A DNA stretch of 64,000 nucleotides, taken from the IMG/VR virus record IMGVR_UViG_3300044712_001034, positions 30,080 to 94,079 of that record, one strand, 5' to 3'. Below are positions 1,400-38,514 of the stretch, one piece after another. Position 1 is the first letter of the stretch; the number at the start of each line of letters is the position of its first letter. The position numbers were made by a program, and so were the translations under genes. Below the pieces are notes generated by a model. It made no database searches and was not told the origin of the DNA. It worked only from the letters and a program-made list of their open reading frames with translations. Source of the stretch: a virus.

Positions 1400-1472
1400 C
1401 GGAGGCGTACAGAATCGAACTGCAATTTCCTGATCCAGAGTCAAGCGTCTTTGTCCGTTAGACCACGCCCCT
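1400..1472 (-). tRNA. tRNA-Gln (CTG)
   Basis: Cloverleaf fits: D stem GTCT/AGAC, anticodon loop CTCTGGA with anticodon CTG, T stem TGCAG/CTGTA with loop TTCGATT, and discriminator G73. The first acceptor pair is an A-C mismatch; a weak 1-72 pair is a known identity feature of tRNA-Gln. No CCA is encoded. Confidence 0.88.
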
Positions 1473-1476
1473 ATAG

Positions 1477-1547
1477 CAGTAAGGTAGAGACTTGAACTCT
1501 AATCAACCATTTTGGAGACGGTTATTCTACCATTGAACTACCTCACT
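1477..1547 (-). tRNA. tRNA-Trp (CCA)
   Basis: Seven-pair acceptor AGTGAGG/CCTTACT with one G-T wobble, anticodon loop CTCCAAA (anticodon CCA), and G73 as expected for Trp. It lies 4 bases from the tRNA-Gln gene. CCA is not encoded. Confidence 0.93.
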
Positions 1548-1552
1548 ATTTA

Positions 1553-1624
1553 TGGACACATAGGGAGTCGAACCCTAAACTTCTGATTGCAAAACAGATG
1601 TGTTCCCGCTAGCACCATGCGCCC
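1553..1624 (-). tRNA. tRNA-Ala (TGC)
   Basis: Acceptor GGGCGCA/TGTGTCC contains the G3-U70 wobble that defines alanine identity, with A73. T arm is TAGGG-TTCGACT-CCCTA. The anticodon loop TTTGCAA gives TGC. Pair 31-39 of the anticodon stem is a T-T mismatch. Confidence 0.88.
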
Positions 1625-1629
1625 TTATT

Positions 1630-1713
1630 GCATACCCGGCACAGCGGAGTGTTTACGTTGCTTCGGTTTCTTTTAATTACGTTTTCCGTCAACAACCGTC
1701 CTTGATAGTACGC
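1630..1713 (-). ncRNA. Structured segment between tRNAs, identity unknown
   Basis: An 84-nt segment between tRNA-Ala and tRNA-Ile that has tRNA length but not a full cloverleaf. Its ends pair (GCGTACT with GGTATGC, two wobbles plus Watson-Crick pairs). A CGGTT/AACCG stem lies inside. No anticodon arm with U33 and no T arm could be built. It may be a decayed tRNA or a small RNA processed with the array. Confidence 0.25.
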
Positions 1714-1716
1714 CAG

Positions 1717-1788
1717 TGGAGAAAGAAAGAATTGCACTTTCATTACTCGCGTATCAGACGAGTTTCCTATCTGTTGAAAGATTTCTCC
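1717..1788 (-). tRNA. tRNA-Ile (GAT), divergent
   Basis: A 72-nt cloverleaf with perfect acceptor GGAGAAA/TTTCTCC, A73, D stem TTTC/GAAA, anticodon arm CTCGT-CTGATAC-GCGAG (anticodon GAT) and perfect T stem GAAAG/CTTTC. The T loop is TGCAATT instead of the usual TTCGANT, so standard tRNA finders may miss it. Confidence 0.65.
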
Positions 1789-1791
1789 AAG

Positions 1792-1864
1792 TGATCCTAA
1801 GTAGATTCGAACTACCAACCTCCGGTATGTAACGCCGATGCTCTGACCGTTGAGCTATAGGATC
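1792..1864 (-). tRNA. tRNA-Val (TAC)
   Basis: Perfect acceptor GATCCTA/TAGGATC, A73, a good T arm with TTCGAAT, and anticodon loop GTTACAT giving TAC. Pair 31-39 is a C-A mismatch. Only 3 bases separate it from the divergent tRNA-Ile. Confidence 0.88.
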
Positions 1865-1868
1865 TTAG

Positions 1869-1940
1869 TGTGATTGAATGATTTTGAAACATTGACCTTC
1901 TCATTTTCAGTGAGACGCTCTACCTCTGAGCTACAACCAC
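1869..1940 (-). tRNA. tRNA-Phe (GAA)
   Basis: Acceptor GTGGTTG/CAATCAC, A73, anticodon arm TCTCA-CTGAAAA-TGAGA (anticodon GAA). The T stem has one T-T mismatch (AATGT/TCATT). Confidence 0.9.
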
Positions 1941-1944
1941 TTAG

Positions 1945-2018
1945 CCGGGGAAGCAGGATTTGAACCTGTGATCACTCGCTCCCAAAGCGAGGGTGTTACC
2001 AAACTGCACTATTCCCCG
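1945..2018 (-). tRNA. tRNA-Pro (TGG)
   Basis: Perfect acceptor CGGGGAA/TTCCCCG with the C1-G72 pair typical of bacterial Pro, and anticodon arm CTCGC-TTTGGGA-GCGAG (TGG). The discriminator is G rather than the usual A. CCA is not encoded. Confidence 0.9.
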
Positions 2019-2021
2019 TAA

Positions 2022-2138
2022 CCGTCTGTAATCAGGCCGCTCTATTACGTAATGTTCATCCAATACAGGACAGGTCAAATGCAATCTGCTGAACCTTACG
2101 TTACGTCTTAGTGTCGATAGCCCTCATTGTACAGACGG
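2022..2138 (-). ncRNA. Candidate structured RNA inside the tRNA array
   Basis: The 117-nt gap between tRNA-Pro and tRNA-Asp is closed by a perfect 9-bp stem (CCGTCTGTA/TACAGACGG). Inside it, 12-nt arms at 2047-2058 and 2090-2101 pair with one mismatch. No convincing ORF or tRNA cloverleaf fits. Two nested long stems in a short spacer suggest a folded RNA co-transcribed with the tRNAs. Function is unknown. Confidence 0.5.
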
Positions 2139-2141
2139 AGG

Positions 2142-2214
2142 CGATCTTAAGGGGACTCGAACCCCTAACCTATTCATCGACAGTGAATTGCTCTAGCCAT
2201 TGAGCTATAAGACC
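2142..2214 (-). tRNA. tRNA-Asp (GTC)
   Basis: Acceptor GGTCTTA/TAAGATC, G73 as expected for Asp, anticodon arm ATTCA-CTGTCGA-TGAAT (GTC), and a canonical T loop TTCGAGT. Confidence 0.93.
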
Positions 2215-2218
2215 AAGG

Positions 2219-2290
2219 CTCCCCGACCAGGAATCGAACCTAGACCTAGTGGTTAACAGCCACTCGTCCTGCCAATTAGACCATCGGAAA
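2219..2290 (-). tRNA. tRNA-Asn (GTT)
   Basis: Acceptor TTTCCGA/TCGGGGA with two G-U wobbles, G73, anticodon arm AGTGG-CTGTTAA-CCACT (GTT), T loop TTCGATT. Confidence 0.92.
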
Positions 2291-2294
2291 ACAA

Positions 2295-2366
2295 GGTGAC
2301 AAATGAGATTTGAACTCATAACATTCTTATCCACAATAAGACGTTCTACCATTGAACTATTGCCAC
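2295..2366 (-). tRNA. tRNA-His (GTG), no encoded G-1
   Basis: Acceptor GTGGCAA/TTGTCAC followed by C73, and anticodon loop TTGTGGA (GTG). The base at -1 is T, whereas bacterial tRNA-His genes normally encode the G-1 that pairs with C73 and is needed by HisRS. Confidence 0.88.
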
Positions 2367-2368
2367 AG

Positions 2369-2435
2369 TTGCGGGGGTGGAAGTCGAATCCACGTTAATA
2401 GGTTATGAGCCTAGGGGTTTCCGAAACTCCCCGCA
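2369..2435 (-). tRNA. tRNA-Met (CAT), short D arm
   Basis: Perfect acceptor TGCGGGG/CCCCGCA, A73, T arm GTGGA-TTCGACT-TCCAC, and anticodon loop CTCATAA (CAT). The whole gene is only 67 nt because the D-arm region is about 13 nt. The T1-A72 pair argues against an initiator. CAT could also be an Ile2 (lysidine) tRNA. Confidence 0.75.
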
Positions 2436-2440
2436 GTATT

Positions 2441-2542
2441 TTAATGTAATTCATAATAAGTTAGTAAGATAATTCCAGCAATTAGTAATACTGCTATAAT
2501 AACGATTACTATTACTTTTAATAAACCTTTTAGAATATCCAT
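2441..2542 (-). CDS. Single-pass membrane micropeptide, 33 aa
   Basis: Tiny ORF between two tRNA genes with AAGGAG upstream of the ATG. After MDILKG nearly all residues are aliphatic (about 7-29), forming one transmembrane helix, with a short polar tail. The Shine-Dalgarno sequence and clean membrane profile support it. Function is unknown. Confidence 0.6.
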   Translation of the reverse strand: MDILKGLLKVIVIVIIAVLLIAGIILLTYYELH

Positions 2543-2556
2543 ATTATTCTCCTTAG

Positions 2557-2627
2557 TCCCCGATGATTGAATTGAACAATCTCTAGCGCCTTATAAGAGC
2601 GATTTGCTTCCGTTACAACAATCGGGG
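2557..2627 (-). tRNA. tRNA-Ile (TAT)
   Basis: Perfect acceptor CCCCGAT/ATCGGGG, A73, T arm GATTG-TTCAATT-CAATC. The anticodon loop CTTATAA gives TAT, which reads AUA. The anticodon stem has only four pairs including a T-G. An AUA reader suits this AT-rich genome. Confidence 0.82.
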
Positions 2628-2632
2628 TTAGG

Positions 2633-2705
2633 TGCTCCTAGTGGAATTCGAATCCACATCTTAGGATTGAGAGTCCTAAATACTAGTCCGTTATACGATA
2701 GGAGC
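2633..2705 (-). tRNA. tRNA-Glu (CTC)
   Basis: Perfect acceptor GCTCCTA/TAGGAGC, T arm GTGGA-TTCGAAT-TCCAC, anticodon arm TAGGA-CTCTCAA-TCCTA (CTC). The discriminator is A. Confidence 0.92.
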
Positions 2706-2720
2706 TTATTCAATTGTTAT

Positions 2721-2969
2721 TTACCCCCGTTTACAAAGTTCAAAATATTTATTCCAGAATAGAGTCCTTGTCTCTCTATCAAAAGGCTGAATAGCCCTAG
2801 TGAAAGCAAGTTTTCTACCTTCAGCTTTTACAAACTGATCCACCTTTGAACAAACTGACTGACCTAGCCACCCACCATTATCTGTATGAATGTAGCAATC
2901 TACAACCCTACGATGTTTACCATCTTCACTATACTTGAAACTTACTTCGTAATCATTTACCTTAAACAT
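2721..2969 (-). CDS. Hypothetical protein, 82 aa
   Basis: Unrecognised. The start at 2969 is chosen because AGGAG lies 8 bases upstream and the codon overlaps the end of the preceding small gene. It has two cysteines, many aromatic residues and a mixed alpha/beta look, with no membrane segment. It sits between tRNA genes in the array transcript. Confidence 0.7.
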   Translation of the reverse strand: MFKVNDYEVSFKYSEDGKHRRVVDCYIHTDNGGWLGQSVCSKVDQFVKAEGRKLAFTRAIQPFDRETRTLFWNKYFELCKRG

Positions 2970-3108
2970 TCTGCATCTCCTGTGATCTAGTTTCTCCGCA
3001 ATTTGCACACTTTTCTACTCGTAACCATCCTATTACTTTACCCTCATAATTCTGAACAGGCTCTACATGAGAGTAAACCCACAAATGAACACACTCTTTT
3101 TCATCCAT
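2962..3108 (-). CDS. Small CxxC protein, 48 aa
   Basis: Short ORF with AAGGAG upstream. It ends in a CANCGE knuckle (residues 34-39) that may bind zinc together with C6/H8 near the start. It overlaps the next gene by 8 bases, which implies coupling. Function is not assigned. Confidence 0.65.
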   Translation of the reverse strand: MDEKECVHLWVYSHVEPVQNYEGKVIGWLRVEKCANCGETRSQEMQNV

Positions 3109-3136
3109 ACCAACTCCTTTATAGTTTAGAATAAGG

Positions 3137-3210
3137 CGCACCGGATAGGACTTGAACCTACAACCGTTAGCTTAGAAGGCTACTGCTCTGTCCTGTTGAG
3201 CTACTGGTGC
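3137..3210 (-). tRNA. tRNA-Arg (TCT)
   Basis: First gene of the tRNA array behind its own promoter. Acceptor GCACCAG/CCGGTGC has one A-C mismatch. T arm is GTAGG-TTCAAGT-CCTAT. The anticodon loop CTTCTAA gives TCT, which reads AGA/AGG. G73; no CCA. Confidence 0.9.
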
Positions 3211-4652: not shown

Positions 4653-4825
4653 ATAACACTACCTACCATTCTAAATATCTCGTCTGTTATAGATTTATCT
4701 GTTTCTCTTTCTAATCCAGTAGGAGATATTTTATAAACCACTTTGCATAAACTACAATATCTATATGCTCTGCTATATAACCAAATGTACTTTAGACAAC
4801 CATTACAATGCTCACACTTATTCAT
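4649..4825 (-). CDS. Zinc-ribbon-like protein, 58 aa
   Basis: Four to five cysteines arranged as C4-x2-C7-x2-C10 and C24-x2-C27 suggest a one-zinc ribbon. The C-terminal 25 residues form a charged helix. Coupled to the next gene through ATGA. Possibly a nucleic-acid or protein adaptor; no family is identified. Confidence 0.65.
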   Translation of the reverse strand: MNKCEHCNGCLKYIWLYSRAYRYCSLCKVVYKISPTGLERETDKSITDEIFRMVGSVI

Positions 4826-4828
4826 AAA

Positions 4829-5152
4829 CTATCCGCGAGTTTTTCTATACTCGTTCATATTATTAGTGGTGTCATATGCCATCATAGAAACTACAGCACC
4901 TATTCCAACACGCACTACATAAAGTAATACTCCCTGCCAGTTCATCCCTAATACTGGATCTGCACTAGGAAAGCCAATTGCTACTAAAGCAAAAGGAGCT
5001 AAAGCATTTAATACTGGTAGCATAATTGCGTAAAAAGCAAAAGGAAAATCATAATTTGGGTTTTTTATTACCCACTTTCTCCAAACCATTTTCACAACTT
5101 GCAAAACTGCCGCAGATAAAGCACCAGAAGTCAACGTAATTGAATTATCCAT
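4829..5152 (-). CDS. Multi-pass membrane protein, 107 aa
   Basis: The start at 5152 is set by GGAGG just upstream; the longer frame overlaps the kinase gene and lacks a site. Three hydrophobic stretches (about 9-22, 36-62 and 74-97) suggest two to three membrane helices. The size and profile resemble a holin, but the gene sits in the early leftward arm, so the role stays open. Confidence 0.7.
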   Translation of the reverse strand: MDNSITLTSGALSAAVLQVVKMVWRKWVIKNPNYDFPFAFYAIMLPVLNALAPFALVAIGFPSADPVLGMNWQGVLLYVVRVGIGAVVSMMAYDTTNNMNEYRKTRG

Positions 5153-34487: not shown

Positions 34488-34660
34488 ATGGACAATGAAT
34501 TAAAGCAATATTTAGAATCAGCAGCTTCTCTAATGAAAGAACAAAAGGAACGAGAAGCCTTTGCTGAAATGATGGTAGAGTATATTGATCCCGGTCATCT
34601 TACTACAGATTTTATTGGGCTATTACTCAATACTAGAAGTATGAAACCCGGTGACGCCCT
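34488..34660 (+). CDS. Major capsid protein, exon 1
   Basis: First 57 codons plus two bases (CT) of the major capsid protein. The exon ends in U directly before a group I intron at 34661. Reading into the intron gives only a few codons before a stop. Joining to 35497 restores CTA and an open frame of 303 residues in total. The helical N-terminus is the usual capsid arm. Confidence 0.85.
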
Positions 34661-35496
34661 AAACTAAAACTGGGGCTTAGACAAAAAATTGTCTAAGAAA
34701 ATTCTACTAAAAACGGGGAAACTCCTGAAAAGGACAATCCCGTGCCAACTCGTTATGAGAGGTGTAGAGACTATGGATAAAAAAGAAGAAGTAAAATATA
34801 TAGTTGCTTTTACTTATGGAGATGGGTATATAGGTTATCATGGAACCGAGTGCAGGTTCGAAGCTAATAACATAATAGATAACCTAGATTATATAAATTG
34901 GCGTAAATCAATATTAGAAAACTTTACAAAAGTTACTACTTATGAAATAAATGATAAACGCCAAAATAGAAAAACAATAGTAAAAACTGTAACTAGAACA
35001 AATCCAATATATACTAAAGTACATTCTAGAATGTACTTATTAGGAAAAAAAGTAATAGATCCGCATTATCTAACGCTTTTAGATTGGGAAACGTTAGCTA
35101 TTTGGTATATGGATGATGGAAATCTTAGATTAGTAAAACAAGACTACAAAGACAGCCATTATGAATACGCAGTACCAAATATAGCTACAAACTGTTTTAG
35201 TTATGGAGATAATCTCCTAATAAAAGAAGCTATAAAAGAAAAACTTGGAATAGAGTTCAATATAAATAAACATTCTATAAACTCTAATGGGGAGCAAACT
35301 TATATTTTGTCTCTTCAAAGAAAAAGTTTTCCAAAGTTCTTGGATGGTATATATAATTATATATTTCCAAGTTTCCAATATAAAATAAATCCGTATGTAG
35401 AACTCGTAACAGGTAATGCTGACGATGATGAGATAGTCCGAACTTCTGCGAAATCAGAAGAAGCCACACAGAAATGATGTGGATACAACAAATTTG
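34661..35496 (+). mobile_element. Group I intron in the major capsid gene
   Basis: An 836-nt intron. Exon GCCCU (34656-34660) pairs with internal guide GGGGC (34672-34676), with the required U-G pair at the 5' splice site. ACU (34669-34671) can form P10 with the first exon 2 bases AGU. P2 is a perfect 9-bp hairpin (34676-34697). P7 is GACTAT (34769-34774) with ATAGTC (35433-35438). P9 hairpins follow, and the last intron base is G. It carries an endonuclease gene. Confidence 0.9.
34773..35477 (+). CDS. LAGLIDADG homing endonuclease (intron-encoded)
   Basis: 234-aa homing enzyme with two LAGLIDADG-type helices: FTYGDGYIG near residues 13-21 and LAIWYMDDG near 110-118. It cuts intronless capsid alleles so the intron can spread. 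The start codon lies in the P7 strand of the intron core, and the C-terminus overlaps the core's 3' part, so translation and folding compete. The longer frame from 34689 lacks a site. Confidence 0.85.
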   Translation: MDKKEEVKYIVAFTYGDGYIGYHGTECRFEANNIIDNLDYINWRKSILENFTKVTTYEINDKRQNRKTIVKTVTRTNPIYTKVHSRMYLLGKKVIDPHYLTLLDWETLAIWYMDDGNLRLVKQDYKDSHYEYAVPNIATNCFSYGDNLLIKEAIKEKLGIEFNINKHSINSNGEQTYILSLQRKSFPKFLDGIYNYIFPSFQYKINPYVELVTGNADDDEIVRTSAKSEEATQK

Positions 35497-36235
35497 AGTC
35501 AAGAAAGTTCGAAAGGGCATTCGTGCTCATACTTTTGTTCCTGGCGCTATCCCTCTAACTAGCGAGATTACAGTATCGGAAAGAATGAACTACATTCTTG
35601 ACGGTGCTATCGTATCTGTTACCGCTAATGATTGGGAACTTCAGGCAGGTGAGATTGGTACTGTTCAGAGCATTAAGAGTGAGATGCAAGCTGTTCTTCG
35701 TGATTATTTCATGAACAAAGTTTTCACCGCCCTAACTACAATCTGGACCGCTACAAATACTCCCGATAATTTTACCAACGTTGGTACTTCAGTAACTAAA
35801 ACCGCTCTAGACGATATGATTGAAACTATCAATCAGACCACACCAGGAGCCAAGGCTATTGTTGGTACTCGTGCGGCTTTACAGCCAATCATGGCTTTCA
35901 TCGGTTGGGATACCTATTCTTCAACTGACGGTATGCTTCAGAATATTTCTGACGAACTACGCCGAACTGGTTGGGTTGGTCAATATCTAGGCGTTCCACT
36001 AGTTGTAGTAAGACAGGATTATGATAGCCCCGATACTTATAACAAGCTAGTTCCAGAAGATAAAATTCTCGTTATTGGCGAAAATGTTGGTGAGTTTGTT
36101 ACTTTCGGTAATGCCATTCCTAGCGAATGGACCGATCAACGCCCCGTTCCTCCACAATGGACATTCAGATTATATCAGCAATTTGGTATGATTATTGATA
36201 ATGCCCAGGGAATCGGCGTTCTCAAAGTTGCATAA
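35497..36235 (+). CDS. Major capsid protein, exon 2
   Basis: Remaining 246 codons (A + 245 aa + stop) after splicing, giving a HK97-like shell protein of about 303 aa. Typical features: early GIRAHTFVPGA, middle GTRAALQPIM and late FRLYQQFGM. Followed by a strong terminator at 36250. High codon quality fits abundant expression. Confidence 0.87.
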
Positions 36236-37344: not shown

Positions 37345-38514
37345 ATGAAAAGGATAAAATTATTAGTTTGGGCTGACCAAGTTGTTGAAACTGGGTTTGC
37401 TAGAGTAGCACACTCTATTGTAAAGTACTTACCTAGAAATTATGATGTAGTTGCAATAGGTGTAAATTACTATGGTGATCCACATAACTATCCATATAAG
37501 ATCTATCCCGCTTCAACAAACGGGGATATATATGGAATAAAAAGAGTGGAAGACATTGTAAAGCACGAGCAACCAGATGTTATATTTATTATAAACGATG
37601 CTTGGATACAACAGCCTATGCTAGATAAGCTAAAGGAGATTTATAAAGATAAAGAGCTTCCTAGAATAGTTACTTATACTCCCGTTGATGCTGCTGAACA
37701 TGACAGCGATTGGTACAAACCTTTTGATGTTGTATCAGTTCCAGTAGCTTATACAGAATTTGGTAAGCGGGAAATGATAAAGGCAAGCCCACAATTAGAG
37801 GATAGAATAAAAATTGTTCCTCATGGTATAGATCAAAAAGTTTTCTTTAAAGTTTCTAGACCTAAAGAAGATCTAAAAAGAATGATCTATCCAGATAAAG
37901 ATGAATTTATTAATAGCTTTATAGTCCTTTCTGCTAGTCGTAATCAACCTCGTAAACGATTAGATATTGCTATGGAAGGTTTTAAAATGTTTGCAGAAAA
38001 TAAACCTGCAAATGTTAAAATTTATATGCATTGTGGAGTAGTTGATTCTGCAATTAATATTCCAAAGATGGCACAAAGATTAGCTATTGGTGGAAGATTG
38101 TTACTCACAAGTTTAACTACTGGCGTTCAAAGAATTCCAGCAGAAAGATTAAATCTAATTTATAATGCTACAGATGTAGGAATTAATACTGGTGTAGGAG
38201 AGGGTTTTAGCCTAACAAATATTGAGCACGCTATTACTGGTGCTCCACAGGTTGTTGCAGATCATAGTGCTTTACAAGAGCTTTACTATGATTGTGGCTT
38301 GCTTATCCCAACAAAGATGAACTACACCCTAGATAATATTATGACTGTGGGGAAATTAGTAAGACCAGAAGACGTAGCAGAAAAACTAGAATTACTCTAC
38401 AACAACAAAGATTTATATAATACTTTAGCTGAACAAGGTCTAAAGAAGTTCTCTTCACCAGAATATTCTTGGCAAGAGATTTCTAAAACTTGGGCAGAAA
38501 TTTTTGAGGGATAA
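37345..38514 (+). CDS. GT4-family glycosyltransferase in the head-tail module
   Basis: GT-B enzyme: N-terminal VVETGFARVAHS glycine loop, IVPHGID linker strand, and the C-terminal donor-site GEGFSLTNIEHA with its E-x7-E type spacing. It is not in the main glycan cassette but between connector genes, with AAGGATAAAGGA upstream. It may glycosylate capsid or tail parts during assembly, or be a moron gene. 389 aa is full length. Confidence 0.85.
   Translation: MKRIKLLVWADQVVETGFARVAHSIVKYLPRNYDVVAIGVNYYGDPHNYPYKIYPASTNGDIYGIKRVEDIVKHEQPDVIFIINDAWIQQPMLDKLKEIYKDKELPRIVTYTPVDAAEHDSDWYKPFDVVSVPVAYTEFGKREMIKASPQLEDRIKIVPHGIDQKVFFKVSRPKEDLKRMIYPDKDEFINSFIVLSASRNQPRKRLDIAMEGFKMFAENKPANVKIYMHCGVVDSAINIPKMAQRLAIGGRLLLTSLTTGVQRIPAERLNLIYNATDVGINTGVGEGFSLTNIEHAITGAPQVVADHSALQELYYDCGLLIPTKMNYTLDNIMTVGKLVRPEDVAEKLELLYNNKDLYNTLAEQGLKKFSSPEYSWQEISKTWAEIFEG

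Follow-up and report, generated by a model that had tools for sequence, protein, structure and literature searches.

A probable mobile group I intron with a LAGLIDADG gene in the major capsid gene of an uncultured tailed phage

The gene for the major capsid protein of an uncultured tailed phage is very probably split by a mobile group I intron. The intron lies in the stretch of DNA analysed here, the window, which covers 64,000 nt (positions 30,080-94,079 of IMGVR_UViG_3300044712_001034); coordinates refer to the window unless a contig label is given. The reading as a group I intron, made earlier in an initial annotation, is substantiated by uninterrupted homologues, covarying helices, an HK97-fold host protein and a LAGLIDADG_2 ORF with both motifs.

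In the mechanism we propose, the pre-mRNA would fold into P1, P2, P3-P9 and P10, and a guanosine bound in P7 would cut after U34660. Joining of CT to A would then give a 303-residue HK97-fold capsid protein, as the anatomy and the homologues suggest. By analogy with characterised homing endonucleases, the LAGLIDADG_2 enzyme would cut intronless capsid alleles, and repair would copy the intron in. Ribosomes that begin translating the ORF before splicing would pull the core apart, and the start would in turn be masked whenever the core is folded. Mutual exclusion of splicing and endonuclease synthesis would follow from the Shine-Dalgarno-like sequence in P6 and the AUG overlapping P7, an arrangement conserved in the family.

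Capsid gene and ribozyme anatomy

The 5' ORF of the capsid gene runs from 34488 to a stop at 34664, and the first ATG of the second ORF is found at 35585. When 34661-35496 is taken out, CT is joined to A, which restores the capsid frame as the initial annotation had stated, and a single frame of 303 aa is recovered. ORF calling was previously thought to cost the protein its 57 N-terminal residues, but the loss amounts to 87 (57 from exon 1 and 30 from exon 2); the caller returns 216 instead of 303 aa because exon 2 offers no ATG before codon 88. The 67 capsid relatives that were fetched (58 distinct proteins) are uninterrupted at the intron site, which falls within the conserved capsid stretch PGD-x-LVKK-x-RKGI. 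Most of them are 48-62% identical to the window's protein, the nearest (L003/L004) 82%. The same sequence, intron included, recurs over 12,925 bp without a difference in a second assembly record, IMGVR 3300042876_000075.

Matches of the host protein in PHROGs were to families of unknown function only. The structure predicted for the uninterrupted homologue L004 (mean pLDDT 69) matched HK97-type capsids (cyanophage A4, Z 14.9; HK97 Head II, Z 14.5), and nearly all structural matches listed were capsid or encapsulin shell proteins. Upstream, the gene order is terminase, portal, protease and a 191-aa gene, followed by the capsid gene. The modelled fold of L004 and this position in a head gene cluster support the host protein as an HK97-fold major capsid protein, in agreement with the initial annotation. 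In a scan of GTDB genomes, a single relative of the capsid protein could be confirmed, on L210, a 23.5-kb contig of a Bathyarchaeota MAG; its placement may reflect either a true host or a binning error, and is too little to name a host. Elsewhere in the window, a cluster of 13 tRNA genes was seen at 1400-3210 on the minus strand.

The splice sites, P1 with its U.G pair, P2, P7, P9 and the terminal G were all found where they had first been placed (Table 1). As in group I introns, the last base of exon 1 (U34660) forms a U.G pair with the guide and the intron ends in G (G35496). P3 had been missed in the initial annotation; its 3' strand lies past the ORF. A free fold of the ORF-deleted intron RNA recovered most of the readable helices.

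Table 1. Features of the interrupted capsid gene and intron sites in the capsid genes of the phage clade. A caret marks the insertion point.
Feature	Position	Strand	Detail
Exon 1, major capsid gene	34488..34660	+	57 codons + 2 nt
Group I intron	34661..35496	+	836 nt; basis: anatomy, homologues, Rfam halves, family alignment
P1 exon side	34656..34660	+	GCCCU
P10 guide	34669..34671	+	ACU; 3 bp with AGU 35497-35499
P1 internal guide sequence	34672..34676	+	GGGGC
P2 hairpin	34677-34682 with 34691-34696	+	
P3 5' strand	34702..34707	+	UUCUAC; covariation
P4 and P5	34714-34717/34739-34742 and 34723-34726/34731-34734	+	
P6 and P6a	34744-34746/34761-34763 and 34749-34751/34757-34759	+	
P7 5' strand	34769..34774	+	GACUAU; last two bases are AU of the ORF's AUG
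LAGLIDADG_2 homing endonuclease ORF	34773..35477	+	234 aa, intact; between P7 5' and P3 3'
P3 3' strand	35397..35402	+	GUAGAA; past most of the ORF
P8	35404-35407 with 35422-35425	+	UCGU with ACGA
P7 3' strand	35433..35438	+	AUAGUC
P9 hairpin	35443-35448/35455-35460	+	CUUCUG/CAGAAG
P9.1 hairpin	35464..35482	+	CCACA/UGUGG
Exon 2, major capsid gene	35497..36235	+	through stop
Site in L198	capsid frame base 105		GACCCU^AAG
Site in L078 with L069	capsid frame base 165		GUCGGU^GAU
Site in window and L170/L207	capsid frame base 173		GCCCU^AGU
Site in L096/L098	capsid frame base 215		CUGGU^ACC

The Rfam model Intron_gpI (RF00028) matched the 5' half of the intron with 35.3 bits (E 5e-7) and the other half with 21.8 bits, against a gathering score of 50 bits, which is a detection threshold and not a defining feature of the RNA. 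The half-matches stay below it because the 0.6-kb ORF splits the core in a way that the model does not allow for, and a scan of the window at this default score reported no intron.

To collect relatives we built a pattern on the first family members and ran it on viral contigs. P3, P5, P6a, P8 and P9 were left free; P4 and J3/4 were fixed, hence their conservation is uninformative. About half of the matches, with a P3 ending in GGGT or similar and no GACTA, were set aside; they resemble another intron type. In an alignment of 22 distinct members with the ORF removed, the structure given in Table 1 pairs in 93.4% of the cells, and covariation reached 0.412, compared with 0.141 in shuffles, none of which equalled it in 500 trials, and with a maximum of 0.127 for slid versions of the structure. 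The core helices P3, P4, P6, P7 and P8, with the P3/P7 pseudoknot, were found in the 22 sequences, although 12 of them cannot form the third pair of P6. P7 is nearly invariant, and its support comes from conservation and not from covariation.

The sequence of P3 varies while its pairing is kept: UUCUAC/GUAGAA of the window is replaced in relatives by CUUUCC/GGAAAG, CUAACC/GGUUAG, CAACAC/GUGUUG and others, and RNAalifold, supplied with no structure, paired the 5' half with the strand past the ORF to give P3. The Rfam alignment places the 3' strand of P3 next to P7. We rejected this placement, since the strand beyond the ORF covaries and the AUUC/GGAU pairings are not kept in relatives; our first guess of an ORF in P8 was rejected on the same ground. 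The 5' half also admits another helix, between UCUAC and a GUAGA immediately 5' of P7, but relatives do not preserve it. As P3 pairs across the ORF, the ORF slot lies between the 5' strand of P7 and the 3' strand of P3. In subgroup IA introns this slot holds P7.1/P7.2; in the window intron it is occupied by the ORF.

The endonuclease gene and its overlap with the core

That the intron carries a LAGLIDADG gene was confirmed by the LAGLIDADG_2 profile (PF03161; 81 bits against a cut-off of 25) and by both motifs with their acidic residues, ending GDG and MDDG. No second endonuclease of the LAGLIDADG kind was found across the 94-kb record. Within the ORF we also noted a perfect 22-bp palindrome, AAGTACATTCTAGAATGTACTT, at 35017-35038, which is imperfect in L078.

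The initial annotation had placed the start codon in the P7 strand. This is the case for two bases of the AUG, but the overlap is not confined to the start: the ORF continues through the 3' strand of P3, P8, the 3' strand of P7 and P9 to 35477, so both of its ends overlap the core. The Shine-Dalgarno-like sequence of the ORF, GAGAGGUG (34757-34764), forms the 3' side of P6a and P6. GACT-ATG is found at one offset in 25 of the 26 family matches with an ATG near P7, a set that includes a few near-duplicates and two members (L179 and L196) with short or broken ORFs; in L096 the ATG is one base later. One further family match has no ATG near P7. Being conserved in 25 of 26 matches, the overlap is more than an accident of the window copy, and since L196 keeps the intron with a broken ORF start, the intron itself does not need it. 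Judged from these sequences, the proposed interference between translation and folding looks like a family trait. A review describes the expression of ORFs that reach into the core as tightly controlled (PMC3984707).

The chances are about even, however, that the overlap has no regulatory meaning. GACUAU would then have offered the ancestral endonuclease a start codon that was later inherited, with splicing completed first or the ORF carried on another transcript. The GACUA of P7 is conserved for the ribozyme regardless, all family members may stem from one insertion event, and the later ATG of L096 also fits such a history. The G of the AUG, on the other hand, is not part of P7 and persists among proteins sharing only 24-40% identity, although this is equally expected of a plain start codon.

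Intron sites within the capsid gene

Most family members sit in apparent ribonucleotide reductase genes, as judged by eye from the translated flanks. In the phage clade of the window, four capsid-gene sites are occupied within 110 nt, each with a P1 fitted through U.G. L170/L207 carry a homologous intron at the window's site with the guide GGGGC shared, their endonuclease being 52% and their capsid gene 46-48% identical to those of the window. The contigs L078 and L069 come from the same metagenome; each has half of a shifted site, and we infer that they belong together. Their intron is 8 nt upstream of the window site, its guide GCCGC faces exon CGGU, and P10 is AUU/GAU. In L198 the guide GGGG is the same, paired to a different CCCU.

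A tree of the endonucleases pairs the window with L078 as sisters (98/96) and adds L170 at the next node (95/97), while L096 and L198 have no settled place among capsid-hosted, reductase-hosted and other copies. Because L170 and the window are both at site 173, the simplest history would be that the intron of the L078 line moved from 173 to 165, its guide and P10 being refitted. A competing explanation, to which we give somewhat less than an even chance, is that the four sites represent separate arrivals from ribonucleotide reductase introns instead of local shifts. The loose placement of L096 and L198 in the tree is compatible with such arrivals, but the clade of window, L078 and L170 (95/97) already covers two sites 8 nt apart, for which at least one local shift is simplest.

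Further, we speculate, tentatively and with more doubt than confidence, that two behaviours are joined in this family: a family-wide switch by which each transcript would serve either endonuclease or capsid, and short-range relocation within one gene (bases 105, 165, 173 and 215) through refitting of the guide. Such relocation could proceed by reverse splicing, for example, and is unexplained by DNA homing alone.

It is highly improbable that the intron is dead, with a shortened 216-aa capsid protein made from its own ATG at 35585 in exon 2 and the 5' fragment left as debris, as nothing is broken in the core helices, the pairing of the guide, the terminal G or the frame of exon 1, exon 1 retains homology to the capsid relatives, the 87 missing residues include positions strongly conserved in all relatives, and the endonuclease ORF is also open.

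Other inserts were observed in relatives. In three contigs (L035:4781-5610, L043:4816-5625 and L105:4790-5640) a complete capsid gene with its stop is followed by a different group I intron with a LAGLIDADG-like gene, and 3' of that intron the last 29-31 capsid codons occur a second time. The tail copies are 87-94% identical in protein, and 46-69% of the codons for the same residue differ (synonymous recoding). Just past the first stop lies a guide that matches a 5' splice site located before the first tail copy (UGACAU/GUGUCA in L035), hence this copy is predicted to lie in the P1 loop. The duplicated tail would provide a spare exon, and the full capsid protein would be encoded whether or not the RNA is spliced. 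Near capsid codon 105, L072:3320-4000 holds a group I intron of yet another type (GAGT^GGGAA, P1 AUGAGU/GCUCAU), whose LAGLIDADG-like gene is also a different one, and a further endonuclease-like ORF lies 3' of the capsid gene (4665-5138). In L096:6642-7563 a second intron-like insert with a LAGLIDADG gene splits a glycosyltransferase gene that is intact in the window (37345-38514).

Known systems and significance

A group I intron with a LAGLIDADG-type gene in a capsid gene is of a kind already known from the mycobacteriophage LittleE. The major capsid gene of that phage holds an intron, probably of group I, and its splicing was established both by RT-PCR and by sequencing the N terminus of the protein (Pope et al. 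2013, PMC3706429). As in the window, U ends exon 1, G ends the intron and the endonuclease gene is of LAGLIDADG type (I-CreI-related); unlike in the window, this gene is on the opposite strand and the phage belongs to another lineage, and the portion of the report available describes no series of neighbouring sites such as that in the window's clade (PMC3706429). The same paper cites a capsid-gene intron in the lactococcal phage Tuc2009 (PMC3706429).

The DNA polymerase intron of cyanophage Pf-WMP3 (subgroup IA2, I-PfoP3I) resembles that of the window in having an ORF that overlaps the core (P6a, P6, P7, P7.1 and P7.2), but it encodes an HNH endonuclease starting in P6a and sits in a DNA polymerase gene (PMC3428280). 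LAGLIDADG intron proteins of phrog_11023 belong to the same endonuclease family as that of the window, the host gene there being DNA polymerase. The window's intron family itself is present in the Pseudomonas phages SPA01 and FBPa8, beside LAGLIDADG genes annotated as hypothetical proteins. These share the P3-P9 core, the ORF slot and the AUG/P7 overlap with the window, but their exons look like ribonucleotide reductase subunits and not capsid. The limited open-access literature covered describes no family with an ORF in the slot between P7 5' and P3 3', a conserved AUG/P7 overlap and several adjacent capsid-gene sites.

Default Rfam thresholds miss this family, and ORF callers truncate the capsid protein. 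The AUG/P7 overlap permits a clean mutational test of translation against splicing, and with four sites within 110 nt and matching guides, the change of intron site becomes a testable question. Phage group I introns were encountered in a recent survey solely in genes for nucleotide and DNA metabolism, a restriction whose cause the authors raise as a question (PMC11878797); one phage clade here carries introns repeatedly in a structural gene that needs very high expression.
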